From contig PEAN01000027.1 of assembly GCA_002753735.1 (NCBI GenBank), positions 1 through 51,757 on the forward strand: a DNA stretch of 51,757 nucleotides, given 5' to 3'. Position 1 is the first letter of the stretch, and each line of letters begins with the position of its first letter. Positions 1,394 through 51,685 of the stretch are shown piece by piece. The notes under the pieces are model-generated. The model worked only from the letters and a program-made list of their open reading frames with translations, was not told where the DNA came from and did not search any database. The translations under genes were made by a program, and so were the position numbers. This DNA is from Magnetococcales bacterium DCbin4 (GTDB taxonomy: Bacteria > Pseudomonadota > Magnetococcia > Magnetococcales > UBA8363).

Positions 1394-1425
1394 GGGACGG
1401 GATGCTTCTCGGGTAGAGGATAAAT

Positions 1426-1484: not shown

Positions 1485-1573
1485 TTGTTCATTCTTCCAG
1501 GCTTGCTTTTTCCCTGGTGTCGTGCGAAGGCTATAGTAACATTTTTCAAGACCACTCTTCCCAGGGATCGACG

Positions 1574-2800: not shown

Positions 2801-2854
2801 ATGGATGCCTCGCCAGAATGTTGTTCACGTGAAAATTTTCGATCAGGATTTCCG

Positions 2855-4803: not shown

Positions 4804-4904
4804 AACAGAGGTCGTTGGTCTCCCTGGAACGATTTCTCAATATCGTCGATGATCATGGCGCGTGACATGGACTATTCCCAAACGGATTCCAATGATAGAT
4901 AGAA

Positions 4905-7251: not shown

Positions 7252-7264
7252 GCATGGAGGTGGC

Positions 7265-7993: not shown

Positions 7994-8081
7994 ATCGTAT
8001 CCATTGGGCCACCTCGTTCATGGTCACGGGATCGCCATGTCGGGGAGAGGGGGTTGCATGAATTCGCCGGGGGAGGGGAGA

Positions 8082-8453: not shown

Positions 8454-9001
8454 TCGCCTTTGGCTCCAACATCGATCCCGTGGAAAATTTGCACCGGGGT
8501 TTGAATTTGTTGCACCAAAGAATCGGTATCCGGCAGGTTTCGACCGTTTGGCGAACGCAACCCTTGCCCGATCCCGATCATCCAGGAATGGGGGATCAGG
8601 GCTCCGAATATTGCAATGGGGTCGTTTTGCTGCATGAAAACGCCAATCTCCGGCCCCCCCTGCAATTGCGTCATTGTCTGCGGGAGATTGAACATCAGTG
8701 TGGCCGTGTGCGTGGTCCCCTGCGTTATGCGCCCCGTCCCTTGGATCTGGATATCATCCTGATGGGTTCCCTGGTTTTTGCCGCAGAAGGATGCCTCCTT
8801 CCCGATCCCGATCTTCTACAACGCCCCTTCGTTGCCGTTCCTTGTGCCGAACTGCTTCCTGATCTGATCCATCCCTCCCTGGGGCTCCCCCTGCTTGCTT
8901 TGGCACAGCGATTTCCGATCACCTCCGATACCATGCGTCCCGATCCTGAAACAACCCGCAGGCTGTCCTCCATTGCGCAACAGATGGTTGGCGTCCCTTG
9001 A
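8432..9001 (+). CDS. folK: 2-amino-4-hydroxy-6-hydroxymethyldihydropteridine diphosphokinase
   Basis: FolK (HPPK) transfers pyrophosphate from ATP to 6-hydroxymethyl-7,8-dihydropterin, the step after FolB. Visible marks are the opening LIAFGSNIDP and the active-site segment RYAPRPLDLDIILMG with the Arg residues and metal-binding Asp pair. It is 189 residues, about 30 longer than enteric HPPK because of a longer middle loop and C-terminal tail. The start overlaps folB by 22 bases and has no strong ribosome site, suggesting translational coupling. Dihydropteroate synthase (folP) is not in the window. Confidence 0.93.
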   Translation: MVGQPVLIAFGSNIDPVENLHRGLNLLHQRIGIRQVSTVWRTQPLPDPDHPGMGDQGSEYCNGVVLLHENANLRPPLQLRHCLREIEHQCGRVRGPLRYAPRPLDLDIILMGSLVFAAEGCLLPDPDLLQRPFVAVPCAELLPDLIHPSLGLPLLALAQRFPITSDTMRPDPETTRRLSSIAQQMVGVP

Positions 9002-11751: not shown

Positions 11752-11770
11752 GGGGTGCGGTCAGAAAAAT

Positions 11771-11932
11771 GATCAAGAAAAAAAGGATCTTAAGGGATAG
11801 CACCCAGGGTGTTGATTTTAAAAACAAAGTCAAAAGCTAAAGCATGGAAACCTTTTTGTTTAAGGTCAAAATCAAAGTCAAAACCCTGGGGGCAATCCCC
11901 CAGACCCCTTTTTTCTTTCAATAATTTTTTGA
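11771..11932. repeat. Dispersed inverted-repeat element, full copy A
   Basis: It runs from GATCAAGAAAAAAAGG to the poly-T after CAGACCCC. The right arm is intact (CTGGGGGCAATCCCCCAG, then CCCC and a T-run) and the left arm is partly decayed. The core carries the conserved AAAGTCAAAAGCTAAAGC and CATGGAAACC words. It lies between the convergent genes smpB and bioA, where a terminator reading both ways would be expected. Confidence 0.85.
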
Positions 11933-24930: not shown

Positions 24931-24934
24931 TATT

Positions 24935-25085
24935 ATTAAGAAAAAAAAGGGGTCTGGGGGATTGCCCCCAGGGTTTTGACTTTAGAAACAAAGTCAAAAG
25001 CTAAAGCATGGAAACCTTTTATTTTTAATTCAAAAACAAGATCAACACCCTGGGGGCAATCCCCCAGACCCCTTTTTTCTTTTAA
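24935..25085. repeat. Dispersed inverted-repeat element, full copy B
   Basis: Best preserved copy. The left arm (A-run, GGGGTCTGGGGGATTGCCC, CCAGGG, TTTTGACTTT) and right arm (CACCCTGGGGGCAATCCCCC, AGACCCC, T-run) pair over about 35 bases with very few mismatches. The core between them has the conserved words AAAGTCAAAAGCTAAAGC and CATGGAAACC. It lies between the convergent chemoreceptor and DnaJ-related genes and reaches the stop codon of the latter. Confidence 0.9.
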
Positions 25086-25687
25086 TATTTTTTCATAAGG
25101 ATTTCTGCGGCTTCCGCAACCTTGCGAAATTCGATGGGATCGCCTCCGGTGTCGGGGTGATGTTTTTTGGCCAGTTGTCGATATCTGGCACGGATGGCAC
25201 CCTCATCAGCCTCTCCCGGCAGACCGAATAGTTCCAGTGCCGCCCCTCTTCGTTCATACCGCCCCCATTGTCGCCAAAATGAATCGATCATGGTTTCGAC
25301 TTCGGTACGGGTTGTTTTTTCCAGATGGGTCAGATCCAGATAATAATCCTGTAACGGATCGAATGGGGTGACCATTCCCTCGCTTAACGGGTGAGGCCAG
25401 GGTTTGAGCCGAATCTTGAGGCAATGGATTTCCATGTCGCCCTCCCGGTTTTGCATCCGGCGTGCTTTGAGCAGATACAGCAGATGAAACAATAAAAAAT
25501 GGATTTGGAACAATTCCAGGTGATCGCTCAGGTTGCTTTGAGCAAAGGGATCGATTCGTTCCTGCTTTAAAATGCGATACAAGGCGTGTTCCTTGATGCC
25601 CATCGGGTGCAGCGACAGGATGGCGGCCAAGCGGTCCAGCAGTTGTTCTTTGAGGGGATCGGGGCAGAGGGGCGATTTCGTGTTCAT
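25082..25687 (-). CDS. DnaJ-related protein with C-terminal J domain
   Basis: This is probably a J-protein co-chaperone for DnaK. The C-terminal 45 residues form a J domain with the HPD motif in KKHHPDTGGD. The N-terminal 140 residues match the DNA-J related pattern (PF12339-like): an early helix, FQIHFLLFHLLYLL, then IRLKPWPHP and DYYLDLTHLE. From the ATG at 25687 it is 201 residues, normal for this group. The start is not supported by a clear ribosome site; a longer in-frame reading overlaps the diverging adaptor gene. Having the J domain at the C-terminus is typical here, unlike DnaJ itself. The client is unknown. Confidence 0.78.
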   Translation of the reverse strand: MNTKSPLCPDPLKEQLLDRLAAILSLHPMGIKEHALYRILKQERIDPFAQSNLSDHLELFQIHFLLFHLLYLLKARRMQNREGDMEIHCLKIRLKPWPHPLSEGMVTPFDPLQDYYLDLTHLEKTTRTEVETMIDSFWRQWGRYERRGAALELFGLPGEADEGAIRARYRQLAKKHHPDTGGDPIEFRKVAEAAEILMKKY

Positions 25688-25780
25688 GGGATCAATTGAG
25701 ACTGCATGGGAAAAACGCCATCCATGATAGAATGATTGATGGAGTGACCGAAGGGACACAGGGGTTGAGAGGCACAGGCC

Positions 25781-27157
25781 ATGACGGTACAGACCCATCA
25801 TGAGACACCGGAGTTGCTGCAACGTCAGGTTCATGGTTTGACGACATTATTGACGTTGCAGGAGGAGGCCCGCAAGGCGAGCCGGTTCGACGAATTGGCG
25901 TTTGTTGTGGTCAACAGTACATTGCGATTGGTTTCCTATGCCCAGGCCATCTTCTGGCGGCGGTCCCGGTCGGGAATACCGACGCTTGCCGGGGTTTCCG
26001 GTGTCACCCGATTCGATCATAATGCACCTCAAATGGTCTGGTACCGCAAGGCGGTCATCCATTTGGCGGGATTGCCGGGAATGGCAGCAATCCAGGAGGT
26101 GACATGGGATCGGTTACCCCCCGCATTGGCGGCGGAGGCGGAATCCTGGAGCCATTCCCATGGCATATGGCTTCCCATGAACCATCCCCGGACCGGGGAA
26201 CTGATGGGTGGACTGTGGTTGACCCGCGACCGTCCCTGGGAAGAGGGGGAACGGTTATTGTTGGAGCACCTGGTGCAGGGGTATGCCGGATCGGTGGCGT
26301 TATGGCAGGGGGGTTCCTTCTGGGGCAGGGTGCGTGCGGGATGGGTACGGATGGGTTGGGTGGTATTGGTGTTGGCGGCGTTTTTTTCCACCTTTTTGAT
26401 CGAGGTGCGGCAGACCGTTCTGGCCCCTGCGCGGGTGACGGCGGTGGATCCATCGATGGTGACCGCACCCATGGATGGCATGGTGGCCCGTTTTTTTGTT
26501 GCGCCAAATGCCGAGGTCAAAAAAGGTGACCCCCTGTTTGCGCTCGATGATACCGAATTGAATCATCGCTACCAACTGGCGCGGGAAGAACTGGCCCTGG
26601 CCCAGACGCAATTACACAAGGTGGGACAGTTGGCTTTTTCGGAACGGGAGCGGGTGGCGGAACTGGCGACCAACCGTAATCTGGTGCGTGAAGCGAGTGC
26701 CAAAGTCGATTTTGCCGCCCAATTGGTGCAACGATCCCGGGTCCATGCGGCCATCGATGGGGTGGCGGTCTTCAGCGATCCTCATGCCTGGTTGGGACGG
26801 CCGGTCCGCCTGGGGGAGCGGGTTTTGGAAATCGCCTCTCCCCAACGGGTTGAGGTGACCATCGAACTGCCCGTTGCGGAAGCGATGCCGTTGGTCATGG
26901 ATGCCGAGTTAAAATTATTTTTAGATATTGATCCATTACATCCCCTGTCCGGAAGGTTGCACTTTGCCGCTTATGAGGCAACCCCGACGCCCGAGGGGAC
27001 GTTGGTCTATCTGTTGAAGGGGGGATTCGATCGAGGAACTGTGTTGCCACGCCTGGGGTTGAAGGGGACCGCCAAGGTATACGGACTTGAGGTTTCCTTG
27101 TTTCATGTCTTGTTTCATCGTCCCATTGCCGCCGTACGCCGATGGGTGGTTTTGTGA
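25781..27157 (+). CDS. GAF-like domain, membrane-anchored HlyD-type adaptor
   Basis: The protein joins a cytoplasmic sensor-like domain to a periplasmic adaptor. Residues about 35-185 resemble a GAF domain (FVVVNSTLRLVSYAQAIFWRR, then GIWLPM and GELMGGLWLTRD). A membrane segment follows at about 192-212 (VVLVLAAFFSTFLIEV), then a biotinyl-lipoyl/HlyD region from about 215: VTAPMDGMVARFFVAPNAEVKKGDPLFALDD, a short coiled coil, and a beta-barrel part. It is 458 residues. GAGAGG lies nine bases before the ATG. The next coding gene on the strand is an M50 protease with its own HlyD part, so the two probably form one envelope complex. No ATPase or TolC gene is nearby. Confidence 0.75.
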   Translation: MTVQTHHETPELLQRQVHGLTTLLTLQEEARKASRFDELAFVVVNSTLRLVSYAQAIFWRRSRSGIPTLAGVSGVTRFDHNAPQMVWYRKAVIHLAGLPGMAAIQEVTWDRLPPALAAEAESWSHSHGIWLPMNHPRTGELMGGLWLTRDRPWEEGERLLLEHLVQGYAGSVALWQGGSFWGRVRAGWVRMGWVVLVLAAFFSTFLIEVRQTVLAPARVTAVDPSMVTAPMDGMVARFFVAPNAEVKKGDPLFALDDTELNHRYQLAREELALAQTQLHKVGQLAFSERERVAELATNRNLVREASAKVDFAAQLVQRSRVHAAIDGVAVFSDPHAWLGRPVRLGERVLEIASPQRVEVTIELPVAEAMPLVMDAELKLFLDIDPLHPLSGRLHFAAYEATPTPEGTLVYLLKGGFDRGTVLPRLGLKGTAKVYGLEVSLFHVLFHRPIAAVRRWVVL

Positions 27158-27201
27158 CCGGCCAGATGCAACGTAGCCGTTATGGCGTATTGGCATTTAT
27201 T

Positions 27202-27399
27202 ATTAAGAAAAAAAAGGGGGCTTAAGGGATTGCCCCCAGGGTTTTGACTTTAAATTGAAAGCTCCAATTTTTGCTTTTGATTTTGTTTTCGACTTTAAAA
27301 ACAAAGTCAAAAGCAGCGTATGGAACCCTTTTTGTTTAAATTCAAAAACAAAGTCAACACCCTGGGGGCAATCCCCCAGACCCCTTTTTTTTCTCAATA
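27202..27399. repeat. Dispersed inverted-repeat element, full copy C (expanded core)
   Basis: Left arm AGGGATTGCCCCCAGGG with TTTTGACTTT and right arm CACCCTGGGGGCAATCCCCC with AGACCCC and a T-run bracket a core about 50 bases longer than in copies A and B. The extra core DNA is AT-rich (GAAAGCTCCAATTTTTGC and following). The conserved AAAGTCAAAAGC word is still present. It lies between two same-strand genes of the adaptor/protease pair. Confidence 0.85.
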
Positions 27400-27459
27400 A
27401 TTTCAATGCAAACGGGGTGCTGAATAGTTACCTTTTTTTATGGTTTTGATCGATCCTTT

Positions 27460-27515
27460 GAAGTCAAAACCCTGGGGGCAATCCTTTAAGACCCCTTTTT
27501 TCTTTTGATCGTTTC
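27460..27515. repeat. Dispersed element, isolated right arm D
   Basis: GAAGTCAAAACCCTGGGGGC, AATCCTTTAAG, ACCCC, T-run, TTTTGATC. It is a single right arm whose inner hairpin is partly lost. It ends about 20 bases before the M50 protease gene. Together with copy C it fills the 377-base gap between the two genes. Confidence 0.7.
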
Positions 27516-27534
27516 CAAAATCAGGGGAATCTGA

Positions 27535-29634
27535 ATGGTCACGATGCAACTGCCCCTGCTGCGCCAGGATTTGCGTCTGCTGCCAGGGGGGACGGGACCG
27601 GGTGGGGCACCGACTTGGTTGTTATGGGATCAGCCGCGCAATCTTTTTTTCCGCCTGGGTTGGGTCGAATTTGAACTGATCTCACGCTGGACCCGTGTGC
27701 ACGAACCCCAAGCGTTGATCGATGCGGTCAACCGTGAAACCACCCTGAAGCTGACCTTGAATCATCTGGAAACCCTGGTTCGGTTCCTGTCATCCCAGGG
27801 GTTGATCCACGCGCAGGGTCGATCCTCCGCGCAGCACTTGCCGCCTCCGCCAAGTTTGATGACCCGGTTATTGCATCACTATCTGTTTTTCAGGATTCCC
27901 CTGGTCCGCCCCGATTCCTTCCTGGAGGCGATGCTGCCGTTGGTGACACCCTCATTGCACCGGCTGATGATGTTTTTGACCGGTCTTGCCTTTCTTCTGG
28001 GGAGCTATGTGACGTTGCGGCAGTGGGATACGTTTACCGCCTCGTTGACTCAATGGACCACGCCCACTGGTTTGGCAATTTTGTTCATGACGGTGCTGGT
28101 GGCCAAACTGGTGCATGAACTGGGACATGCGGTGACAGCAAAGCGGTTGGGATGCCGGGTTCCGGTCATGGGGATCGCCTTTCTCGTCCTTTGGCCGTTT
28201 TTCTACACCGATACCAATGAAACCTGGCGCCTGACCCGCAAGGAAGATCGCCTGGCGGTTGCTGCTGCCGGGATCATGGCGGAGTCGGTCTTGGCGGCGT
28301 GGGGATTGTTGGCCTGGGCCATGGTGGATGATGGTCCATGGCGGGGGGCGCTTTTTTCGTTGGTGGCGGTCATCTGGACCAGTACCCTGCTTTTGAATGC
28401 CAATCCGTTCATGCGGTTTGATGGTTATTTCATCCTGTCGGATGCCCTGGACCTGCCCAATCTGCATGAACGGGCGTTTGCCATGGGGAAATGGTTCATC
28501 CGGACCCGTCTTTTGGGGGCATCGTTGCCTCCTCCCGAACCCTGGTCTTCGGGAATGCGTGTTTTTTTAATCGCATTTGCCCTGGGGACCTGGATCTATC
28601 GCCTGGTGTTGTATCTGGGGATTGCACTTTTGGTTTATCATTTGTTTTTCAAGCTGTTGGGCGCATTTCTCATGGGGGTGGAATTGTATTGGTTCCTCTT
28701 GCGTCCCATGGGTCATGAGGTGGCTTGGTGGTGGCGCAATCGCAGGGAAATGGCGGCGGGCCATGTCCGATTGTGGATGCTGCTGATTTTGCTGGGGGGG
28801 ATGGTGTTGTTCCTGCCGTGGCAGATTCCGGTGCGGATGCCAGCGGTATTGCGGTCATCGGTCTATGCCGAGGTGTATCCGCCAGAGGGGGGACGCCTTG
28901 CGGTGGTATCGGTCCATCCGGGTCAGTGGGTGCGACAGGGTGAGGTATTGTTGCCATTGGAGGCCCCTGAACTGGAAGGTGCCCTGGTTCAGGCCCGCCT
29001 GGAAGTGTTGCGCTTGCAGGGGGAGTTGGCGTTATTGGGGCCGAATTTCGTTGCGGATCGTTTGGTGACGGAACAAAAATTATCGGCGGCCCGGGTATTG
29101 GTGGTTGGTTTGTTGGCCCGGAAGGATCGGTTGACGATCCGTGCCCCTGTTTCCGGGACGGTAACCCTGCTGCGCGAAGGGTTGGCGGATGGTCTGTGGG
29201 TGGGCAAGGAGGATCTTCTTCTGGAGATCCGGGCGTTGGGTTCAGAACGGATCATCGCCTATGTGGCGGAAAAGGAGCGCGATCTGCTTGAGCCTGGAAT
29301 GCGCGGGGTGTTTTATCCCAATCATGCCGGTTTTCCAGTTATCGACTGTGACTGGGTGGATGCCGATCCGTTTGCGGTGTCCCGGCTGGAAGATTTGCCA
29401 CTGGCGTCGGTGTATGGGGGACCGCTTGAGGTTGAGCGTATGGAGGGCGGAGGGGTGCGTCCCCTCCAGCCCCGGTTCATGATCCGCTTCCAGGGGCGTG
29501 ATCTGGCGGCGTTGCCGAAAATGGTTGCACAGGCGATTCCGGGAATGGTCATTTTGCCTGGCCGACCCGACTCCCTGGCGGGAAGGATTGGCAAACGGAT
29601 TGCAGCCCTCTGGGTACGGGAAATGGGTTGGTAA
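27535..29634 (+). CDS. PqqD-like / M50 site-2 protease / HlyD fusion protein
   Basis: This is a multi-pass membrane zinc protease with adaptor parts. Residues about 28-92 look like a PqqD/RRE-type winged-helix domain (hydrophobic pattern ending FLSSQGLI). Membrane helices surround the M50 active site: HELGH (H194, E195, H198) and NPFMRFDG (290-297) supplying the third zinc ligand. Further helices run to about 435; from about 445 a HlyD/biotinyl-lipoyl region follows (GGRLAVVSVHPGQWVRQGEVLLPLEAPELE, then IRAPVSGTV). It is 699 residues. AGGGGA lies six bases before the ATG at 27535. With the preceding GAF-HlyD gene it likely matures and/or exports a peptide or protein; PqqD-like domains often bind ribosomal-peptide leaders. 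No precursor peptide or radical SAM gene was seen. Confidence 0.75.
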   Translation: MVTMQLPLLRQDLRLLPGGTGPGGAPTWLLWDQPRNLFFRLGWVEFELISRWTRVHEPQALIDAVNRETTLKLTLNHLETLVRFLSSQGLIHAQGRSSAQHLPPPPSLMTRLLHHYLFFRIPLVRPDSFLEAMLPLVTPSLHRLMMFLTGLAFLLGSYVTLRQWDTFTASLTQWTTPTGLAILFMTVLVAKLVHELGHAVTAKRLGCRVPVMGIAFLVLWPFFYTDTNETWRLTRKEDRLAVAAAGIMAESVLAAWGLLAWAMVDDGPWRGALFSLVAVIWTSTLLLNANPFMRFDGYFILSDALDLPNLHERAFAMGKWFIRTRLLGASLPPPEPWSSGMRVFLIAFALGTWIYRLVLYLGIALLVYHLFFKLLGAFLMGVELYWFLLRPMGHEVAWWWRNRREMAAGHVRLWMLLILLGGMVLFLPWQIPVRMPAVLRSSVYAEVYPPEGGRLAVVSVHPGQWVRQGEVLLPLEAPELEGALVQARLEVLRLQGELALLGPNFVADRLVTEQKLSAARVLVVGLLARKDRLTIRAPVSGTVTLLREGLADGLWVGKEDLLLEIRALGSERIIAYVAEKERDLLEPGMRGVFYPNHAGFPVIDCDWVDADPFAVSRLEDLPLASVYGGPLEVERMEGGGVRPLQPRFMIRFQGRDLAALPKMVAQAIPGMVILPGRPDSLAGRIGKRIAALWVREMGW

Positions 29635-29635
29635 A

Positions 29636-29682
29636 CGATCAAGAAACAAGGTTTCCGCCGCGACAGACCTCAGGGTTGAATT
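29636..29682. repeat. Possible decayed left arm at edge of defence island
   Basis: GATCAAGAAACAAGG, then a diverged middle and CAGGGTTGAATTC resemble the start and inner edge of the dispersed element's left arm. It sits between the M50 gene stop and the stop of the SIR2 gene. Similarity is weak. Confidence 0.3.
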
Positions 29683-29688
29683 CCGAAG

Positions 29689-32600
29689 CTACTGGGAGTC
29701 AGCGTCGCCAGTCGACCCATTTTTCTTCAAGACATATTCTTCAACAGCGTTACGCACTTCTGCCATTGGATCATTTGAAGCATTGTCCAGCCACTGTTTA
29801 ATGGACTCGGCCTTCATGTATGATGCATTTTGACTCATGATCAGGGAGAGTTTTACACATTGATATCTGAGAAGTGGCAAATCATCGGTCACTGGCTGAC
29901 GATCAAATCTATCGTAGGAAGTTTCATCCAGCAGGAATCTTAATCCGTGGATGCAATCGCCAGCCAGTTGAGTCCTCCATTCTTCAGGACCATCCTGGAA
30001 AATCCATATGGCGAAGGTGATTGCAGGAAGTATGGTCGCTCTTCTCCGCACCCGAATGATTGCGCCAACTTCACGGATCAGATCGAGTGGTGGTGATGGC
30101 AAGCCATCGGGAAAATACTTGACACTTCGACTCCACTGAAAAAGAACATTGGTGGCAATATAGGCTTGCCTCTCTGAATCAGACGCCATGAGCTGCGTAA
30201 GTGAGAATTGTGCCAGCTGAACCTGCTCAGGAATGGATCGTACCAAACCGGGGAACAGATAGAACACCTCCGGAAAGTCCTGGATTCTTGGTTGAACAAT
30301 ATTCAGCAATTCCAGTGCGGTTTCTTCAGGAAGTGTGAATGCGGAAATGAGGGATCCAATGGCTATAAGGTCCTTTCTCATTTGCACAATCTTATCGCCG
30401 ACCATCAATCCATCCGATGATGGGAACTCAAGACCAGTGGAGACCCAGCGTCTGATTAGTGCATGAATGAAGATCTCATCCTCTTGCGACAATCTGAAGG
30501 ACCGTTCCGGTTTCTGCTCCAGGCCAACTGCTCTGCCCAACATTGCAAGATTATTTTGAATCGCTCTTGATGTCTCGGGTTCGGTTTCCAGGTACGCTGT
30601 CCTGAATATTTTTTCTGCATGACCATTTTCCGGCTCAGGTAGTCTTAGAAAAACCCACTCGTCAATCGAGGTATGCCCGGGCATCCCGTTTATTTTGCTG
30701 AACTGCTTGTTCCAAAGAGCCTCAGCGAATTTCTGCTGCTGTTGCGATGACAGCACGCCAAGCATATAAAGCTTAATCAATCTCCGGGCCGCCCGTTTGC
30801 GCGTGGCAGATTCGGTCATGGCGGACAGGAGTTCCTCAACCGGCTTTTCGATTTCCCCGTGGGGTGTCGTTGGAACCGGAAGGGGTGGCGTTTCTGGCCA
30901 TGAATCAAAAGGATCTGGCCACTGATTTTCATGGGCCACCATGAACAGGCAACGCCCCGGGATGGGCAACGCGGCCAAGGTTGGAACATGCCGAAAACGC
31001 TCTGATACCGGGAGGGCTTTGAGGACTCGTTTAAAAAGATGGCCCAATTCGGTTGTTAACCCGGGATGCTGACGAAACAGCTCTGATTTGTAGTATTCAC
31101 AAGCCCGCTCAAATAGAGCATTGATGATTCCGACTTGCAATCGCGGGGTAAGCATTGAGAGCAGTTCAACGGCAACACGCAGACGTATAACCCAATAGTC
31201 CTGATTGCGGCCATCTTGACAACCGCATCTTACCCATGAATAGCCAGTAAGCTTCTGTAAATAATCTACCATGAATCGAACAAAATTGCCATCTAACCTG
31301 GCGATGGTCGTTCGAGTGAATAGCTTTTTGAAGTACTTATTATTGTAAGAGCTCGCCAGACGCCACCCAAGAAGAGCTGCAGTTGCTGGATGTTGCTTGA
31401 CAAGCCGCAGAGCGCAAAGATTCAGTCCTTGCTCATCAATGATTACTGAAGGTAACCCTGCCAATTCCGTCAGGCGCTTCATCTGATAAGCTGAGAGCAA
31501 GCCTGACTCCTTAAATCCCCAATAAACAAACTGACGCCATAGACGTATCTCCCCAAGGTCAAACATTCGTTCTTCAACCGGACCATCGGTGGGTGGGGGA
31601 GGAGGATCCTTTTCCAATTCACCAAGTAAAGCATAAAAGTCTGCGTAGGCGTCACAGTGATGAACCGCCAACTCTTTCCATCTTTGACGGATGGCCTCTC
31701 CATGCTCATGTTGAGCCAAGTCGTTTTCTCTATTCTGAAAATCCATTGACAACGACGTCAATCTCATAAGAGGGAAAAGGGCCCATCCCTCACGGGAAAG
31801 ATTTGGCAGGTCAACATCGCCCTTCCTTGTGTTGCGGCGGATTGACTGGATGGATGAACGTACAAGAGCCAGCGCTTGATCAACATGGTTGGTCTCTGCC
31901 AACAAGGCAGCTTTACGGACACCCCAGAACGGATCACTTCGCCCGGTATTCCACCCTCCAAGCAGCTTTTCCAACTCCGCGTGGTCCAATCTACTCAATG
32001 CGACCAGGCAACGTTCGTAGAGCACTTTGTTGCCAAACTCAGGGTCGTCACCGACAAATGGGGCCAATTTGTCAAGCCAGTCTGAAGCGGTGTTCAGATC
32101 TGCATCATCACGGGAAGAGCGCACCACGGCCAATGCCAATTCCCGCCAGCAATGGCGCGCACGGGTCCAATCCGGATTGGGCCATTCAACCGTTGAACCT
32201 TGGGAGTCAAGGCAAACTTGGCTCTGGACATCGACTGATTCCAGGATGGAAACAATTTCCCGCACGACTTTACCAAATATCGGCGCTAATGCTATTTCCA
32301 TGCGCCAGACCAACGCCTCAAGTGCAAAAAGCCGATCCCATGGCATCATGCCCGGGTGAGGGTGAGCCACCTCCAGGATCCACTGTTCAGTATGAAGCCA
32401 GACGGTACGGCGCACGTGTCCAGGGGCTATGAGCCAACCGGGGTAACAGGAACGATTGTGGGCCCATACATCAATCATTTCCTTCACTGCCGTAAGGCGT
32501 GGTTCACCCTTAAGAGGAGGCATTTCAGGTTGTAACGCTTCCTTCATGGGGCGAGACGTTGCAGAAGAAGTTGGAATTTTCAAGTATGAAGGTGGTTGGG

Positions 32601-33534
32601 GTGGCGGGTCTCCTTGTCCGGGCCAAAAATACGGCGGTAACGGCCTCCCCTGGTGCAGCATATGGAGAAACCATTCTGTCGCATACCGATGACGGTTGTC
32701 AGATGGCCAATGTTCACTGCCCGGGAGATGGGCCAGATCGATGGGAACCACATGGCGTTCTTCAAGCATACGCCGACGATGTGGGGAGAGGTCCAACCAG
32801 CCCACCAGAAATATTTTCTGGCTCAATACGTTCAGATGATCTCGAACCCACCCTGACCAATGAAGGAAATTTGGATCATCCCCAGAAAAACCAATCAGGC
32901 AGAAAACGTTCTCCATCATGGATTGGCGGACGAGGTTCACGAATGGGGCGAACCTTGATGGGTATGTACGGTAGTCCTCTTCAGTAAAGATGAAAGGATC
33001 GTTGGCGGGCAACGTCCCATGCAATTTGACAATACGTGGGCGCTTGCTCCCCGGGATTTCAGAAAGCGTTCTCACGACGTGGTAGTTGCGATTGAATACA
33101 TCCAACCGGCCCTGTTCAAGGAGGGTGTCCCAGTTGGTGGTCAATACCTCGGCCCAAGGCAGGTTGAGCAATAGCTGGTGCAAATCTCCAGGGACGTATT
33201 CCTCGTTGGGTACAATGCCACGAATCATTCCATTCAAAGCGGTTCGTCCGAAAGCGGCTTCGAACTCCTGGGCCAATCTCAGGAACCCGCTGGTCGCGCC
33301 AGCCTCTTTCATCGCGCGGTCATGCTGGTCACATTGTTCGGGCTTGACGTAAAGACGATCAGCCATTTCGCGGGCGGTATCCGCCCAGGTTGGCATTTGG
33401 CGACTGCTGCCTGAAACCGGATGTGCATTCCGGCTGAATCCAGCACCAACCATGACTGCGGCATTGCCAAACGGCGCATCCCGCCACAACGCCTCTCGAA
33501 GGCGTGTCACATGGGCCATGTCGGGAAACGACAT
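29689..33534 (-). CDS. Large SIR2-domain protein, candidate anti-phage NADase
   Basis: This 1281-residue protein has an N-terminal SIR2-like domain (about residues 20-260): MVGAGFSRNA nucleotide loop, TTNWD (N134), VKLHG (H172), and IGFSGDDPNF. The Asn and His are the residues that catalyse NAD+ cleavage in defence sirtuins such as ThsA and DSR2, and their spacing is similar. The remaining thousand residues are mostly helical with Trp- and Leu-rich segments, no obvious transmembrane part, and no ATPase motif; they may form the sensor. Base use is more AT-rich than the neighbours. The ATG at 33534 has GGAGG five bases upstream; another ATG at 33546 does not. A type I restriction remnant lies upstream. 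Defence role is inferred. Confidence 0.8.
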   Translation of the reverse strand: MSFPDMAHVTRLREALWRDAPFGNAAVMVGAGFSRNAHPVSGSSRQMPTWADTAREMADRLYVKPEQCDQHDRAMKEAGATSGFLRLAQEFEAAFGRTALNGMIRGIVPNEEYVPGDLHQLLLNLPWAEVLTTNWDTLLEQGRLDVFNRNYHVVRTLSEIPGSKRPRIVKLHGTLPANDPFIFTEEDYRTYPSRFAPFVNLVRQSMMENVFCLIGFSGDDPNFLHWSGWVRDHLNVLSQKIFLVGWLDLSPHRRRMLEERHVVPIDLAHLPGSEHWPSDNRHRYATEWFLHMLHQGRPLPPYFWPGQGDPPPQPPSYLKIPTSSATSRPMKEALQPEMPPLKGEPRLTAVKEMIDVWAHNRSCYPGWLIAPGHVRRTVWLHTEQWILEVAHPHPGMMPWDRLFALEALVWRMEIALAPIFGKVVREIVSILESVDVQSQVCLDSQGSTVEWPNPDWTRARHCWRELALAVVRSSRDDADLNTASDWLDKLAPFVGDDPEFGNKVLYERCLVALSRLDHAELEKLLGGWNTGRSDPFWGVRKAALLAETNHVDQALALVRSSIQSIRRNTRKGDVDLPNLSREGWALFPLMRLTSLSMDFQNRENDLAQHEHGEAIRQRWKELAVHHCDAYADFYALLGELEKDPPPPPTDGPVEERMFDLGEIRLWRQFVYWGFKESGLLSAYQMKRLTELAGLPSVIIDEQGLNLCALRLVKQHPATAALLGWRLASSYNNKYFKKLFTRTTIARLDGNFVRFMVDYLQKLTGYSWVRCGCQDGRNQDYWVIRLRVAVELLSMLTPRLQVGIINALFERACEYYKSELFRQHPGLTTELGHLFKRVLKALPVSERFRHVPTLAALPIPGRCLFMVAHENQWPDPFDSWPETPPLPVPTTPHGEIEKPVEELLSAMTESATRKRAARRLIKLYMLGVLSSQQQQKFAEALWNKQFSKINGMPGHTSIDEWVFLRLPEPENGHAEKIFRTAYLETEPETSRAIQNNLAMLGRAVGLEQKPERSFRLSQEDEIFIHALIRRWVSTGLEFPSSDGLMVGDKIVQMRKDLIAIGSLISAFTLPEETALELLNIVQPRIQDFPEVFYLFPGLVRSIPEQVQLAQFSLTQLMASDSERQAYIATNVLFQWSRSVKYFPDGLPSPPLDLIREVGAIIRVRRRATILPAITFAIWIFQDGPEEWRTQLAGDCIHGLRFLLDETSYDRFDRQPVTDDLPLLRYQCVKLSLIMSQNASYMKAESIKQWLDNASNDPMAEVRNAVEEYVLKKNGSTGDADSQ

Positions 33535-33563
33535 CAGATCCTCCATTCATGACAACAAATTCA

Positions 33564-33728
33564 TCAGTAGAACTCCCGGAGATGCCCATATGCCCGGTCG
33601 AACCACTCCTGCTCCTTGTGGCGCTTGTTCTTCAAGAGGATTTTGCGCAGTGCTTTCCGGATGGCGCTGAGGGATTGCCGGTCGGGGAAGCGGGCCATGA
33701 GGACGATCTCGTCGATGTCGCTGACAAT
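33564..33728 (-). pseudogene. hsdR: 3' remnant of type I restriction endonuclease gene hsdR
   Basis: On the minus strand, 54 codons ending in a stop read IVSDIDEIVLMARF, then AIRKALRKILLKNK, HKEQEWFDRAYGHLREFY. This matches the usual HsdR C-terminus (a DIDEIV segment, KALRKTLLKYKLH, QELFDRAYGYIRQYY). A stop or frameshift precedes it and the rest of the gene is missing. It ends 30 bases before the SIR2 start, on the same strand. Confidence 0.7.
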
Positions 33729-34080
33729 GCGCCCCGGTTCTGCTCCTCTTCAGGCATACGATAGCATACCAAGACAGCATGACATATGATTTTCAGCGTA
33801 ATCATCCCCTGTCCAGCGTCACCGTATGGAATACCGGATGGAAGGGTGATCTTCCAATTCGCATTTTGCTGGACTGGGCGTTCCGGGGCGATCCGTCGAA
33901 CCTGCCGCACTGGGTAGCATGGGCCAGCAGGGTCAAAAGGGACGGGCATGTCGGTTGGTCAGATCCTGTTTGTGGCAGGCTGGCAGGCGTTCGCTGGGAA
34001 AAAAGGGATGGATCAATTCCGTAAGGTTGCGACTGTCGTCCAGGCCGAACTGAAACCCCTCTTCGGGCAGTTGCTTCTGA
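33729..34080. other. Gap between hsdR remnant and phoU
   Basis: Several overlapping open frames occur on both strands but none is recognisable or has a clear ribosome site. It may be decayed mobile or restriction-system DNA. Confidence 0.4.
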
Positions 34081-34833
34081 TCAAGGCGTCCCGGTGGTTT
34101 GGTTCGGATCGGAGGCGACATGGTGTGTGGTGACCATACAGGTTTTGTCCCCTTTGGGTCGGTCCATGGTCGGTTTTTCGCCATTGATCCGGTAATAAAG
34201 ATCTTCAGCGATGTTGGTGATGTGATCGCCGATCCGTTCCAGGTTTTTGGCGATGAACAGCAGATGGATGCAGGAACTGATGTTGCGGGGGGATTCGATC
34301 ATGTGGGTCAGGAGTTCGCGAAACATGCCGTCATAGAGGGTGTCCAAGGCTTCGTCACCCTGCCAGACCGCCATGGCGAGTTCGGTTTTTTCCTCGATCC
34401 AGGCTTGACGCATGTGTTCCAACTGTTCCAATACCATGGATCCCATGACCCGCAGCCCACCCGCCGCAGTGGGGAGGGGGTGTTGTGCCAGGACCGCGAC
34501 CCGTTTGCCAATGTTCTTGCTGAAATCGCCCATCCGCTCCAACTCGGAGGAGGCTTTCTGGATGGCGATGACCCAACGCAGATCGTCCGCCAAAGGGCTG
34601 CGCAGGGCGAGAATTTTGATGGAATCCTCTTCGATGGCCAAGTCCAGATTGTCCACCTCGGTATCCCTCTGGATCACTTTTTGGGCGAGGTTGGTGTCGA
34701 AGCGGGAGACTGCGGTGATGGCATCCAGAATCATGCCATGCACCAGCTCGAATTGGCGGATGAGCAGTTCATCCAGACGGTTGAGTTCCTGGTCAAACGC
34801 GGCCACGGTGTGGGGCTGGAAACTTTTGGGCAT
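34081..34833 (-). CDS. phoU: Phosphate transport system regulatory protein
   Basis: PhoU is the negative regulator that links the Pst transporter to the PhoR kinase and limits phosphate uptake. It has two PhoU helical bundles, each with the metal-binding acidic pattern: ASSELERMGDFSKNIGKR and IAKNLERIGDHITNIAEDLYY. It is 250 residues; the last 25 beyond the fold are variable. It is the last gene of pstC-pstA-pstB-phoU, 39 bases after pstB. phoB and phoR are not in the window. Confidence 0.95.
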   Translation of the reverse strand: MPKSFQPHTVAAFDQELNRLDELLIRQFELVHGMILDAITAVSRFDTNLAQKVIQRDTEVDNLDLAIEEDSIKILALRSPLADDLRWVIAIQKASSELERMGDFSKNIGKRVAVLAQHPLPTAAGGLRVMGSMVLEQLEHMRQAWIEEKTELAMAVWQGDEALDTLYDGMFRELLTHMIESPRNISSCIHLLFIAKNLERIGDHITNIAEDLYYRINGEKPTMDRPKGDKTCMVTTHHVASDPNQTTGTP

Positions 34834-34872
34834 GGGGGGGAATCCTGTCTGTGGCGTGGACTTTAAGTGATA

Positions 34873-35712
34873 TCAACCGAAACGGCCGGTGACATAACCT
34901 TTGGTGCGTTCCTGTTTGGGGTTGGTGAAGATGATTCCCGTTTGATTGAATTCCACCAACTCTCCCAGATGAAAAAAGGCGGTATAATGGGATACCCGTG
35001 CCGCCTGTTGCATGGAATGGGTGACGATGACAATCGTGTAATTGTGGGACAGATCGTCGATCAATTCCTCGATGCGGGCGGTGGCGATGGGATCGAGGGC
35101 GGAACAGGGTTCATCCATGAGGACCACCTCGGGATTGACCGCAATGGCCCTGGCGATGCATAACCGTTGTTGCTGCCCCCCCGAAAGACTGGTCCCCGGT
35201 TCTTTCAATCGATCCTTGACCTCGTTCCACAATCCCGCCTTGGCCAGGCTGGTTTCGACCACCCGATCCATTTCAGTTTTGTTGCGGGTCATGCCGTGGA
35301 TGCGTGGTCCATAGGCGATGTTGTCATAGATCGACTTGGGAAACGGATTCGGTTTTTGAAACACCATTCCAACCCGTGCGCGCAATTGTACCACATCGAC
35401 GGCGGGACCATAAATATCTTCGGTGTCCAGGGTGATTGCGCCATTGACGCGGCAACCGGGAACGGTGTCGTTCATTCGGTTCAAACATTTGAGATACGTG
35501 CTCTTCCCACAACCCGATGGGCCGATGAGGGCGGTGACCCGGTGTTGACGGATGGGGAGGGAGACATCGACGAGCGCCTGTTTGTCGCCATAATAGACAC
35601 TGACATTCCTGGAATCCATTTTGACCGGTTCCGTTGCCGGGGCAAGGGTTCCAGGGGTGGCTGTAATTTTGCCGGAAGCTTTCAAGGTAAAGGAATTCTT
35701 CACGTGGACCAT
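34873..35712 (-). CDS. pstB: Phosphate ABC transporter ATP-binding protein
   Basis: PstB powers phosphate import through PstC and PstA. Walker [11 protein letters not shown]-loop [11 protein letters not shown], signature [10 protein letters not shown] and Walker [14 protein letters not shown] are all present. From the ATG at 35712, one base after the pstA stop, it is 279 residues with a 30-residue N-terminal extension; an internal ATG at 35619 ([11 protein letters not shown]) would give the minimal form. It sits between pstA and phoU. Confidence 0.95.
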
Positions 35713-35713
35713 C

Positions 35714-37000
35714 CTACCAGCGTCGTTCGACACGATTGCGGATATAGACTGCCAAGGCATTCATGGCAATCAGAAAGACCAAAAGGATCAGGGTGGCACC
35801 TGCGGTTTTTTCAAGGAATGCCCGTTCGGGGCTGTCGGCCCAGAGAAAGATTTGTACGGGAAGGACGGTGGCGGGATCCATGACCCCTTCAGGGAGGTCC
35901 ATGATGAAGGCCACCATGCCGATCATGAGCAGGGGGGCGGTTTCACCCAGGGCGCGGGCCATGCTGATGATGGTGCCGGTGAGCATGCCGGGGGCGGCCA
36001 GGGGGAGGACATGGTGCAGGACAACCTGCAGGGGGCTGGCACCCAGGGCGCGGGCACCGTCGCGAATGGCATCGGGGACCGATTTCAAGGAGGCGCGCGT
36101 GGCGATGACCAGGGTTGGCAGGGTCATCATCGCCAGGGTCAGACCACCCACCAGGGGGGCGGAGCGGGGCAGATGCATCAGGTTGAGATAGAGTGCCAGT
36201 CCCAGAAGGCCGAACACGATGGAGGGGACCGCGGCCAGGTTGTTGATGTTCACTTCGATGACATCGGCCCAGCGACCTTTGCTGGCGAATTCTTCCAGAT
36301 AGACCGCCGAGGCGACTCCGAGGGGAAAGGAGACCAGAAAGGTGATCAACAGGGTCAGGGTCGAACCCTTGATGGCACCGAGGATCCCTGCCAGTTCGGG
36401 ATTACGTGAATCGCCGTTGAGGAAGAAGGATTGATTGAATTGTTGACGCAGACGGTCATTCTTTTCAAGCCAGTCGATCCATTGCGCCTGTTTGTCGGAA
36501 ATGTGCCGTGCCGCCTCGGGTTGGTTGCGTGGCACTTCTCCCTTGATCCACATGTCCACTTCGTCGGCCGCGATCAGCCACACCCCTTGGGTGGAGGACA
36601 ACCATTCGGGATGTGTCTTGAGAAGGATTTGCAATTGGAAGGGTGCGCCGTCACTCAAAAGCTTGTGCAGTTTTTGTTGATGGTTGCGTTCCCGGACCTC
36701 GGGAAAGGTTTGGTTCAAGGCTTTTTTCAGGACAGCGCGATAATCACCCCGGTCGAGGGAGGCGGGGGAACGGTTGCCCTCGGGATCGAGCAGGGATGGG
36801 TCGAAGGGGATGTCGAGCAGGATCCGGGTCTGAAAGAATGCATTGTAGCCCTTGAAGACCATGGTTCCCAGGAGCAGCAGCAACATGGACAGGGCGATGC
36901 CCAGCCCGATGATGCCATACCGGCGGAAACGGCGGCTGGCGCGGTGGCGGCGCGCGAGGTGTTGTTGTTGTTCCGGCGTGATTTGGTGAAATGGGCTCAT
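35714..37000 (-). CDS. pstA: Phosphate ABC transporter permease PstA, long form
   Basis: This is one of two inner-membrane permease subunits for phosphate. At 428 residues it is over 100 longer than enteric PstA because of an N-terminal DUF3333-like region: one membrane helix at about 29-50, then a periplasmic part to about 205. The permease core follows with [25 protein letters not shown], the EAA loop, and ALGETAPLL. Its ATG overlaps the pstC stop as ATGA. Confidence 0.93.
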
Positions 37001-38364
37001 TGTTTTTCGTGGTAACGTTTGACCACCCCCAGGGCAATGACGTTGAGGATCAGGGTGACGAAGAACAAAGTCAATCCCAGGGCAAAGGCGGCCAGTGTTT
37101 TGGGGCTGTCGAACTCCTGGTCGCCGACGAGGAGGGTGACGATCTGCACGGTAACGGTGGTCATGGCCTGAAGGGGGTTGGCGGTGAGATTGGCTGCCAG
37201 TCCCGCTGCCATGACCACGATCATGGTTTCCCCCACGGCCCGGGAAATCGCCAGCAGCAATGCCCCGACGATGCCCGGAAGGGCTGCCGGGAGGACCACC
37301 TGGCGGATGGTTTCCGCTTCGGTTGCACCCATCGCCAAAGAGCCATCGCGGATGGCCTGGGGGACGGCATTGATGACATCGTCCGACAGGGAGGAGACGA
37401 AGGGGATGATCATGATCCCCATGACCAGACCGGCGGCCAGGGCGCTTTCCGAGGCAACCTCCAACCCCAGATCGCTTCCCAGGGAGGCGATGGCGGGGGC
37501 GACGCTGAGGGCGGCGAACAATCCGTACACGACGGTCGGGACCCCGGCCAGAATCTCAAGGGCCGGTTTGACCCAACGGCGTACCCGGGGTGAAGCGAAT
37601 TCCGACAGATAGATGGCGCAGAACAATCCGACCGGGGCCGCTACCAGAATGGAGATGCCGGTGATCATCAGTGTTCCGGCGAACAGTGGTATGGCACCGA
37701 ACGAACCGGTTCCTCCCACCTGATCGGCGCGGATGGCGGTTTGCGGACTCCATTTCAGGCCGAAGATGAACTCGGTTACGGGAATACTGGAGAAAAAACG
37801 CAACGTTTCAAAAATCAGGGAGAGGATGATTCCCAGGGTGATGAACAGGGAGATGGAAGAGGCGGCGATCAGGAGGATTCCCACGATCCGTTCCACGGCT
37901 TGGCGGGCACGGAATGCGACATTGATTTTTTTCCATGAATGCCACCACCCCAATACACCCATTCCCAGTGTCAGGAGCGTGACCAGGAAATCGGCGATGC
38001 GGTTGAGGTGGCGCATGGTGTCCACGCTTGCCATGGAAATGCCCAATTCATCCTTGAATGGGGTCCGTCCCTCGGCGACGAGGATGATTTTATTGAGCTG
38101 GATGGATTGCACCATTGGATCGGACGGGGTTCCTGGGAGGTCATGCAATACCAGGGTATGGATGGTTTGGGCGGAGAACATGGCAAACAAGGCGATCACC
38201 ACCAATCCGGGGAGGAGGATCCAAAGCGCCACGAACATGCCATGGTATCGTGGTCGCGAGTGCAGACGGTCATTGCGGGCCAGAATCTGACTTTTGCGGG
38301 TACCCATGACAAAACCGACAATGGCCAGAATGGTCAGGCAGATTCCTGTCAATTGGAGTCCCAT
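36997..38364 (-). CDS. pstC: Phosphate ABC transporter permease PstC, long form
   Basis: This is the other permease subunit. At 455 residues it is longer than enteric PstC; the extra N-terminal part has two membrane segments (about 5-22 and 44-66) and a periplasmic loop. The core has ILAGVPTVVYGLFA, the EAA-type loop AMGATEAETIRQVVLPAALPGIVGA and SRAVGETMIVVMAAG. It is the first gene of the operon. No pstS is next to it, so the phosphate-binding protein must be encoded elsewhere. Confidence 0.93.
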   Translation of the reverse strand: MGLQLTGICLTILAIVGFVMGTRKSQILARNDRLHSRPRYHGMFVALWILLPGLVVIALFAMFSAQTIHTLVLHDLPGTPSDPMVQSIQLNKIILVAEGRTPFKDELGISMASVDTMRHLNRIADFLVTLLTLGMGVLGWWHSWKKINVAFRARQAVERIVGILLIAASSISLFITLGIILSLIFETLRFFSSIPVTEFIFGLKWSPQTAIRADQVGGTGSFGAIPLFAGTLMITGISILVAAPVGLFCAIYLSEFASPRVRRWVKPALEILAGVPTVVYGLFAALSVAPAIASLGSDLGLEVASESALAAGLVMGIMIIPFVSSLSDDVINAVPQAIRDGSLAMGATEAETIRQVVLPAALPGIVGALLLAISRAVGETMIVVMAAGLAANLTANPLQAMTTVTVQIVTLLVGDQEFDSPKTLAAFALGLTLFFVTLILNVIALGVVKRYHEKQ

Positions 38365-46175: not shown

Positions 46176-46319
46176 CACAAACCGTGGCGAAGGAACATTC
46201 ATGGCGGATGAGGGGTCTGAAGAGTTTGGTACGTACCGTACAACGGCTTCGTTGCTCTTCAAAGGTTGAGTGTGACAAAGTGGAAGTATCCAAACACCGG
46301 CATGAATATGGAGTTTCCG

Positions 46320-46931
46320 ATGTCAAGCACAACCACCTTTGATGATGTCTGGAAATTGTTCCAGGAAACCGACCGCATGGTCAAAGAGACCTCAGCCCAG
46401 ATGCGGGAAACCGACCGCAAGTTTCAGGAGACGGACCGCAAGTTTCAGGAGACGGACCGCAAGTTTCGGGAAACCGAGCGTCTGGTCAAGGATGTTTCCC
46501 GGCAGGTGGGAAATCTGACGGGCAAGTGGGGACAGTTTGTGGAAAACCTGGTGGCCCCTGGTTGCCGGACCCTGTTTGCCGAGCGGGGTATTCCGGTGCA
46601 TCAGGTGCATCAACGGATCAAGGCCAACCTGGATGATGGTCGCACCATGGAGATCGATATCCTGGTGGTCAATACCGATGCGGTGGTGCTGGTGGAGGTC
46701 AAGAGTACCCTGACGGTGGCCGATGTTCGGGATCACCTGGAACGCCTGGCACAATTCAAAGAATTTTTTCCCCGTTACGGAGATTGTCGGGTGATGGGAG
46801 CGGTGGCGGGGATTGTCACCGAGGAGGATGCGGAACGTTTTGCAAGAAATCAGGGGCTTTTCGTGATGGTCCAGTCAGGGGATGGGGTGACCCTGGCCAA
46901 TGAATCGGGGTTTGAACCGCGGGCCTGGTAG
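46320..46931 (+). CDS. Coiled-coil PD-(D/E)XK nuclease-like protein, copy 1
   Basis: The protein has a coiled coil and a restriction-endonuclease-like fold. Residues about 14-60 are heptads of the form QETDRKF, repeated with slight changes. Residues about 66-200 carry the catalytic pattern EID (D113) and EVK (E126, K128), as in DUF3782-type PD-(D/E)XK proteins. The ATG at 46320 has TGGAG eight bases upstream; longer in-frame starts exist at 46302 and 46308. It is 203 residues. A second copy follows at 47002, identical from the last heptads to the end. DNA cleavage, repair or transposition-linked roles are possible; none is shown. Confidence 0.7.
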   Translation: MSSTTTFDDVWKLFQETDRMVKETSAQMRETDRKFQETDRKFQETDRKFRETERLVKDVSRQVGNLTGKWGQFVENLVAPGCRTLFAERGIPVHQVHQRIKANLDDGRTMEIDILVVNTDAVVLVEVKSTLTVADVRDHLERLAQFKEFFPRYGDCRVMGAVAGIVTEEDAERFARNQGLFVMVQSGDGVTLANESGFEPRAW

Positions 46932-47001
46932 CGATCAGGCGCTCCATGAACGGGTAGGCGGTCCCCGGTATCCAAACATTTGCATGAATATGGAGTCTCC
47001 G

Positions 47002-47634
47002 ATGTCAGGTACAACCACCTTTGATGATGTCTGGAAATTGTTCCAGGAAACCGACCGCATGGTCAAAGAGACCTCTGTCCAGATGCGGGAAACCGACCGC
47101 ATGGTCAAAGAGAACGCCGCCCAGATGCGGGAAACCGATAGAAAATTTCAGGAGACGGACCGCAAGTTTCGGGAAACCGAGCGTCTGGTCAAGGATGTTT
47201 CCCGGCAGGTGGGAAATCTGACGGGCAAGTGGGGACAGTTTGTGGAAAACCTGGTGGCCCCTGGTTGCCGGACCCTGTTTGCCGAGCGGGGTATTCCGGT
47301 GCATCAGGTGCATCAACGGATCAAGGCCAACCTGGATGATGGTCGCACCATGGAGATCGATATCCTGGTGGTCAATACCGATGCGGTGGTGCTGGTGGAG
47401 GTCAAGAGTACCCTGACGGTGGCCGATGTTCGGGATCACCTGGAACGCCTGGCACAATTCAAAGAATTTTTTCCCCGTTACGGAGATTGTCGGGTGATGG
47501 GAGCGGTGGCGGGGATTGTCACCGAGGAGGATGCGGAACGTTTTGCAAGAAATCAGGGGCTTTTCGTGATGGTCCAGTCAGGGGATGGGGTGACCCTGGC
47601 CAATGAATCGGGGTTTGAACCGCGGGCCTGGTAG
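47002..47634 (+). CDS. Coiled-coil PD-(D/E)XK nuclease-like protein, copy 2
   Basis: This is a tandem duplicate of the preceding gene. It is 210 residues, one heptad longer: it has an extra METDRMVKENAAQMR-type unit and one fewer RKFQETD unit. From RKFRETERL to the C-terminal RAW the protein is identical to copy 1, and the DNA is too as far as I can compare, pointing to very recent duplication or ongoing conversion. The catalytic EID and EVK residues are intact, so both copies may be active. The ATG at 47002 has the same upstream TGGAG context. Confidence 0.7.
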   Translation: MSGTTTFDDVWKLFQETDRMVKETSVQMRETDRMVKENAAQMRETDRKFQETDRKFRETERLVKDVSRQVGNLTGKWGQFVENLVAPGCRTLFAERGIPVHQVHQRIKANLDDGRTMEIDILVVNTDAVVLVEVKSTLTVADVRDHLERLAQFKEFFPRYGDCRVMGAVAGIVTEEDAERFARNQGLFVMVQSGDGVTLANESGFEPRAW

Positions 47635-47971: not shown

Positions 47972-49075
47972 ATGAAAAAATCAAAGGCTCAATTACTTGG
48001 GGTAGCAGCATTTTTTGTGATCATGGCAATGGGAATTGCCAAGTTTCCCATGGCGGGGGACAACAAGGAGCCTTCCTGGGTTTCCGTTCCAATGGAGGTG
48101 AAGGCAATCGAGGGAACATGGATCATGGATCCGCGGGACGGTTCGCAACCGGAGCCTGGAACCACGAAAGATCGGGCCGCAGTTGGTGATCGGATGGCCG
48201 CCAATCAACCGGGATCAGGAGGGATGACGGGGCGACCTCCGATGGCTGGTGGGATGGGGCCTCAGGGAACGATGCAAGGTGGTCCTGGAATGGGGAATGC
48301 TCCAGGAATGATGCATGGTCCGGGGATGGGGAATGCTCCAGGGATGATGCCTGGTCCGGGGATGGGGAAAGGTCCGGGGATGATGCAAGGTGGTCCGGGG
48401 ATGATGCAAGGTGGTCCGGGGATGATGCAAGGTGGTCCGGGGATGATGCAAGGTGGTCCGGGGATGATGCAAGGTGGTCCGGGGATGATGCAAGGTGGTC
48501 CGGGGATGATGCAAGGTGGTCCGGGGATGATGCAAGGTGGTCCTGGGATGATGCAAGGTGGTCCGGGGATGATGCAAGGTGGTCCGGGGATGGGGAATGG
48601 TCCGAAGGGTCCAAATGCTCCGGGGATGATGCAAGGTGGTCCAGGGATGGCAGGGATGGGGAATGATCCGAATGCTCCGGGGATGATGCAAGGTGGTCCA
48701 GGGATGGGGAACCGGATGGGGGGGATGTCGGGAGACTCCATGAATTTTACCCGTCTGGCCCCCGATATCGAGGCGGTCGAACGGTATCTCTATGACCAGA
48801 TGCAACGGATCAACATCACCAGCGCCCAGGAGAAGGCATGGAATTCCTTTGCCCAGGCGATCATGAACCAGATCACCAGCCAGATCAACACCATGAACAC
48901 CATGCGCAAGGCGATGAAAGAGAGTCCGATGGATCGTATTGAACAGCAGTTGACCGCCATGGAAGCGATGGTGAAACAACGTCGTGCACTGTTCCAGGAG
49001 TTCAGATCCTTGCATGAACAGCTCACCAGCGTGCAAAAACCGATGGCGGAACAACTGTATGCCGAGTTTCAGTAA
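47972..49075 (+). CDS. Exported Met-rich protein with Spy/CpxP-like LTxxQ domain
   Basis: This is a predicted periplasmic protein of 367 residues. An N-terminal signal or anchor (KKSKAQLLGVAAFFVIMAMG) is followed by a short linker and about 160 residues of Gly/Pro/Met repeats, including ten perfect GPGMMQG heptapeptides. The C-terminal 120 residues form a helical domain with two LTxxQ-type motifs, ITSAQEKAW and LTSVQKPM, as in Spy, CpxP and ZraP chaperones. Met clusters of this kind bind Cu(I). A CopA-type ATPase follows 16 bases later, so a role in periplasmic copper binding or protection is likely. AGGAT lies about ten bases before the ATG. The combination is unusual. Confidence 0.7.
   Translation: MKKSKAQLLGVAAFFVIMAMGIAKFPMAGDNKEPSWVSVPMEVKAIEGTWIMDPRDGSQPEPGTTKDRAAVGDRMAANQPGSGGMTGRPPMAGGMGPQGTMQGGPGMGNAPGMMHGPGMGNAPGMMPGPGMGKGPGMMQGGPGMMQGGPGMMQGGPGMMQGGPGMMQGGPGMMQGGPGMMQGGPGMMQGGPGMMQGGPGMMQGGPGMGNGPKGPNAPGMMQGGPGMAGMGNDPNAPGMMQGGPGMGNRMGGMSGDSMNFTRLAPDIEAVERYLYDQMQRINITSAQEKAWNSFAQAIMNQITSQINTMNTMRKAMKESPMDRIEQQLTAMEAMVKQRRALFQEFRSLHEQLTSVQKPMAEQLYAEFQ
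48371..48580 (+). repeat. Ten tandem 21-bp repeats encoding GPGMMQG
   Basis: The unit is GGTCCGGGGATGATGCAAGG plus T. Ten copies are almost identical in DNA (one has TCCTGGG), so the array is young or kept uniform and should vary in number between strains. Looser MMxGPGMG units flank it on both sides. It is protein-coding, not a CRISPR. Confidence 0.95.
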
Positions 49076-51539: not shown

Positions 51540-51540
51540 A

Positions 51541-51685
51541 TGATCAAGAAGAAATTTGGCTTAAGGGATTTTCCCCAGGACTTTGATTTCATAAACCAAG
51601 TCAAAAGCGAAGCATGGAAGCCTTTTATTTTAAATTCAAAAACAAAATCAAAGTCCTGGGGGCAATCCCCCATATGCGTTAAATT
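51541..51685. repeat. Dispersed inverted-repeat element, full copy E
   Basis: It starts one base after the copA stop with GATCAAGAAGAAATTTGG, has the left arm AAGGGATTTTCCCCAGGAC with TTTGATTT, the conserved CAAGTCAAAAGCGAAGC core word, and the right arm AAAGTCCTGGGGGCAATCCC then CCATATG. Both arms carry matching substitutions (AGGACTTTG and CAAAGTCCT), so pairing is kept. The outer T-run is missing. The last 70 bases of the window show nothing further. Confidence 0.85.

Follow-up and report, generated by a model that had tools for sequence, protein, structure and literature searches.

Genes at the locus

The window, by which we mean the whole 51,757-nucleotide stretch of DNA that was analysed, contains a long gene for a protein with an N-terminal SIR2 domain and a helical C-terminal part, and the remnant of a type I restriction gene lies just upstream of it (Table 1). 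The initial annotation had called this reading frame, which is indeed real and runs on the minus strand from 33534 to 29689; the plus strand of 29689-33534 has stops throughout. The protein measures 1281 aa from its first listed ATG and 1285 aa from the alternative ATG four codons upstream.

Table 1. Features of the inserted segment and of the dsr2-like gene, in window coordinates.
Feature	Position	Strand	Evidence and remarks
Insert of ~4.5 kb with dsr2-like gene and hsdR remnant	29635..34130		Comparison with congener G043
HsdR remnant: the last 55 aa of a type I restriction protein	33567..33731	minus	~30 bp upstream of the dsr2-like gene; HsdR identity
dsr2-like gene, 1281-aa SIR2 protein	29689..33534	minus	Starts with ATG at 33534, or in the same frame with ATG at 33546; ORF, Dsr2 models, dN/dS 0.22
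SIR2 domain (putative NADase), residues 1 to ~290, with N134 and H172; motifs GAGFS, TTNWD, KLHG, GFSGDDPNF	32665..33534	minus	Pfam SIR2_2, family alignment, DSR2 fold match
C-terminal alpha-helical solenoid, residues 290-1281, presumed phage sensor	29692..32667	minus	AlphaFold2, armadillo/HEAT matches, end-to-end family alignment

Comparison with a congener (G043, locus L062) revealed the extent of the insert. Window positions 25139-29634 align with positions 403-4531 of the congener locus, and 34130-38265 with 4604-8755; these same flanks lie only 73 bp apart in the congener, where the window has 4.5 kb. Neither direct repeats nor a transposase were found at the ends of the insert. The C-terminal tail of PhoU (window 34081-34140) differs from the tails of the four congeners compared, since the 3' end of the PhoU gene is where the insert starts. 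The HsdR remnant, whose presence upstream had been noticed from the outset, is 71% identical to the C-termini of HsdR-type ORFs of ~970 aa from the same class (G030, G042, and G046), and 49% identical to a plasmid HsdR (E 2e-9). The stretch 33735-34075 yielded no plasmid match, and the 81-aa ORF at 33779 had no PHROG match.

The G+C content here is 51.9%, compared with 55.6% elsewhere in the window. The AT-richer composition described in the initial annotation is therefore present but modest, with 6.6% of equal-sized segments being as low. The term "defence island", which the same annotation applied, is too strong: the insert of ~4.5 kb sits amid housekeeping genes, and only the HsdR remnant accompanies the gene. 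Outside the insert the window holds housekeeping genes, so that strictly speaking this is not a defence island. The window instead displays a small insertion, in which a single intact defence gene stands beside a dead restriction gene.

Several other features of the window deserve mention in their own right. Partly palindromic intergenic repeats of ~110-160 bp, 80-89% alike, occur at 11769-11929, 24932-25093, 27199-27403, and 51539-51672; the same repeat family is also found in congeners (L063 and L064), and it resembles REP or MITE-type elements. Two tandem, near-identical genes (46266-46931 and 46900-47634) share 779 bp at 95% identity, and their proteins combine repeated 'RETDRKFQETDRKF' heptad-like segments with a conserved C-terminal part. 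The protein encoded at 47972-49075, immediately upstream of the gene for a heavy-metal P-type ATPase, repeats a GPGMMQG-type unit ~15 times.

The SIR2 domain and the predicted structure

All motifs on which the first description of the protein relied were found at the residues given there: GAGFS at 30-34, TTNWD at 132-136 (N134), and KLHG at 170-173 (H172), and these are followed by GFSGDDPN at 215-222. The catalytic motif is thus intact, and the likeness to DSR2 drawn from the Asn-His spacing holds, this being 38 residues both in the window protein and between N133 and H171 of Bacillus subtilis DSR2 (PMC11087589). A Pfam search of the window protein returned SIR2_2 alone (E 1.8e-16); neither the classic sirtuin family nor SLOG was matched.

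The remaining ~1000 residues, which had been described as mostly helical, are almost wholly so in the AlphaFold2 model of residues 290-1281. This model, built from an alignment of 14 sequences, is a confidently predicted all-helical solenoid (pLDDT 81.4, pTM 0.82). A profile search with the solenoid produced weak armadillo/HEAT matches, and a fold search found generic HEAT-repeat/armadillo proteins with low TM-scores; nothing in a viral structure library matched the C-terminal part significantly. The fold and profile comparison with DSR2 that the initial annotation had proposed bears out the helical nature of the C-terminus, but B. subtilis DSR2 does not appear among its top 50 fold matches. 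For a model of residues 1-620 (pLDDT 80, pTM 0.58), B. subtilis DSR2 accounts for every one of the top 50 PDB matches (E 1e-11 to 4e-9), and chains comprising only the SIR2 domain of DSR2 fit the window model with TM 0.79-0.84 at 3-4 A.

Assignment to the Dsr2 family

The window protein was first regarded as an undescribed effector whose C-terminal part fits no named system. This is incorrect, since two Dsr2 models match it end to end. The NCBIfam model NF041819 ("anti-phage defense-associated sirtuin Dsr2", 1215 positions) aligns with residues 23-1263 over positions 18-1214/1215 (615 bits, E 2.7e-184), and the PADLOC Dsr2 model PDLC02184 (1222 positions) gives a whole-length match at E 2.1e-179. 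The PADLOC Dsr1 model, in turn, returned no match at E values up to 1. The equivalog cut-off of NF041819 is set at 1400 bits, which the 615 bits of the window protein do not reach, so that the NCBI rule would not name it Dsr2. The cut-off is narrow, since no member found in the ~690 genomes searched attains it. Going by sequence, the window protein is best filed as a divergent Dsr2 homologue and not as an equivalog.

Relatives, conservation, and selection

Whole-length relatives are present in two other Magnetococcia genomes, at 76-77% and 56-57% identity, and the second of these carries an in-frame TAG. Others were found in Geotalea, in one Planctomycetia genome, in three other Pseudomonadota genomes, on plasmids of Methylorubrum, Ideonella, and Priestia, and in one phage record and 12 viral contigs. 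The 12 viral loci were detected with the family alignment; scanning the viral contigs with the single window protein gave no match. Identity amounts to 57-77% within Magnetococcia and 21-34% outside, and the range of the Dsr2 family now includes this class.

The family alignment comprises 11 sequences, the window protein and 10 relatives, aligned end to end. T132, T133, N134, D136, K170, L171, H172, and G173 are invariant in it, as is most of the motif at 215-223. Comparison with the 76%-identical relative gives a dN/dS of ~0.22 overall, with ~0.12 for the SIR2 domain, 0.24 for the middle part, and 0.25 for the rest. The window gene is therefore far from a chance reading frame and is conserved as a protein under purifying selection, strongest in the SIR2 domain, while the presumed sensor drifts faster. 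Two homologues are broken close to the junction of SIR2 and sensor: one, on a Planctomycetia contig (L004:6362-10250), has overlapping separate frames there, and the other (L012:2866-6708, G003) has an in-frame TAG. These interruptions may represent decay, assembly errors, or split genes.

The distribution of the gene is patchy, as it occurs in three of 48 genomes of the class and in none of the seven congeners searched. Such patchy presence, together with the mobile context, the full-length match to a defence family, and the lack of a Pfam match to the classic sirtuin family, speaks against a sirtuin with a role outside defence, for instance a deacetylase or a metabolic regulator. SIR2 domains do also deacylate proteins, yet we consider this explanation very improbable.

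Gene neighbourhoods of the relatives

The survey of gene neighbourhoods that the initial annotation had suggested was performed, and relatives do occur among defence genes. The 76%-identical relative (L002) belongs to a type I restriction cluster, where it immediately follows an intact hsdR, with hsdS, a TIR-like gene, and an FRG-domain candidate defence gene also upstream. Another relative (L042) is embedded in a type III restriction operon, with a DrmD-like helicase on one side and a type III methylase, a YhcG-type nuclease, and a type III restriction gene on the other. Two further relatives adjoin a HEPN/nucleotidyltransferase gene (L012) and the helicase of a candidate system (L043). The suggestion that the hsdR of L002 is the same gene as the window remnant was rejected, as there is no match between them and they fall into different subfamilies.

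Association with mobile DNA is also evident. One relative resides on a plasmid, with a TIR gene and an integrase close by (L010), one on an integrative element with a relaxase (L003), and one beside a serine recombinase (L041), and some are located inside prophages. At one locus (L077:2240-16516), the dsr2-like cargo is situated between the prophage genes for the connector and the major head protein, beside two small reverse-strand genes.

Restriction genes next to some of these homologues raise the question of whether the gene forms a multi-gene system together with the type I restriction genes beside it, for instance as a back-up toxin upon restriction failure, and has been orphaned in the window. 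An hsdR C-terminus indeed lies ~30 bp upstream in the window, an intact hsdR is directly upstream in L002, and the L042 gene is placed between those for the DrmD-like helicase and the type III methylase. Nevertheless, the two hsdR genes are of different subfamilies, most relatives lack a neighbouring restriction gene, and the window gene has been preserved despite the deletion of hsdR. Such a partnership is accordingly improbable, and a protein acting as a one-gene system is the preferred reading.

Proposed function

We propose that the window gene encodes a single-gene defence protein of the Dsr2 family, a SIR2 NADase triggered by its own sensor that would bring about abortive infection, and we put the probability of this mechanism as a whole at roughly 0.88. 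NADase chemistry and sensing logic have been demonstrated for B. subtilis DSR2 (PMC10981675, PMC11087589, PMC11263360), and it is from this published protein and from the family name that we infer NADase activity, oligomerisation, phage sensing as the trigger, and abortive infection as the outcome. At rest, the SIR2 NADase domain would be kept inactive, probably in an oligomer. During infection, the C-terminal alpha-solenoid would bind a newly made phage protein and thereby release the SIR2 domain, which would hydrolyse NAD+ through N134 and H172, and the infected cell would stop growing or die before phage release.

NADase-driven abortive infection by the window protein is thus likely, and the single-gene abortive-infection system with a built-in sensor, as first envisaged, is well supported by family, architecture, mobility, and neighbourhood; the label "undescribed" has to be dropped. 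A review describes DSR1 as inhibiting phage while leaving the cell alive (PMC10952713), and given this precedent even the "abortive" step is put forward provisionally.

Comparison with B. subtilis DSR2 and other known systems

The tail-tube mechanism was established on the 1005-aa DSR2 of B. subtilis 29R (WP_029317421; PDB 8k98 and others; PMC10981675, PMC11087589, PMC11263360, PMC10973363). DSR2 of this type is switched on by tail-tube protein, is inhibited by DSAD1, and forms a tetramer. The window protein resembles it in its SIR2 fold (TM about 0.8), in the equivalence of N134/H172 to N133/H171 at the same spacing, and in the helical solenoid of the C-terminus. It differs in length (1281 aa), its sensor being ~300 residues longer, and in sequence homology, which was found in the SIR2 domain only, while the sensor halves are without detectable relation. 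Indeed, the long-Dsr2 profile stops matching B. subtilis DSR2 at the end of the SIR2 domain, and hhalign of the two C-terminal halves, in which a single sequence represented the B. subtilis type, returned a probability of 3%. A sensor homologous to the H1-H4/HEAT-cavity sensor of B. subtilis DSR2 was not detected in the window protein by profile, by hhalign, or among the top 50 folds.

The B. subtilis-type lineage was represented by one proxy sequence (L078, from a Priestia megaterium plasmid) together with the PDB entries. This proxy is a close homologue of B. subtilis DSR2, with a full-length match to the PDB sequence of 1254 bits, and the Dsr2 models of NCBIfam and PADLOC both fail to match it. 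In a tree of SIR2 domains, it falls outside the long-Dsr2 group (support 87/88), on a long branch. A scan of viral contigs for B. subtilis-type relatives found none. As judged from these comparisons, the long proteins grouped in databases as "Dsr2" are distinct by sequence from the tail-tube-sensing lineage.

It could nonetheless be argued that the window protein works exactly like B. subtilis DSR2, with its solenoid recognising the phage tail-tube protein in monomeric form. DSR2 is the nearest fold for the SIR2 domain and for the beginning of the helical part, both proteins join SIR2 and a helical solenoid in one chain, and a short RKAxxLA.G helix motif, common to both C-terminal halves, aligns in the helix-bundle region of each. 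Set against this are the longer sensor of the window protein, the fact that neither profile comparison nor the top fold matches link the two sensor halves, and the SIR2 tree, in which the proxy, itself on a long branch, lies outside the long-Dsr2 clade. We regard an identical mode of action as unlikely.

Since the sensor halves lack detectable homology, the tail-tube trigger is not transferable by homology, and the trigger of the window protein cannot be assumed to be a tail-tube protein. The papers examined describe no trigger for the sensor half of long Dsr2. It may be, at somewhat less than even odds, that this sensor is of separate origin from that of B. subtilis and recognises a different phage component, in which case "Dsr2" in the databases would denote two systems under one name. 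The difference between the sensor halves implies that the tail-tube mechanism is not to be copied by default onto proteins annotated as Dsr2.

ThsA of Thoeris shares with the window protein a SIR2 NADase domain with the same motifs, to which the PADLOC ThsA match is confined. The window protein is unlike ThsA in having neither SLOG nor a ThsB partner, as no TIR gene was seen among the flanking genes scanned with Pfam, and its helical C-terminus is unrelated. With the proteins described by the Dsr2 models (NF041819 and PDLC02184), it has in common the match over the whole length, the order of domains, the N-terminal SIR2 domain with its Asn/His dyad, and the organisation as a one-gene system, and it is set apart from them by its score of 615 bits against the 1400-bit equivalog cut-off.
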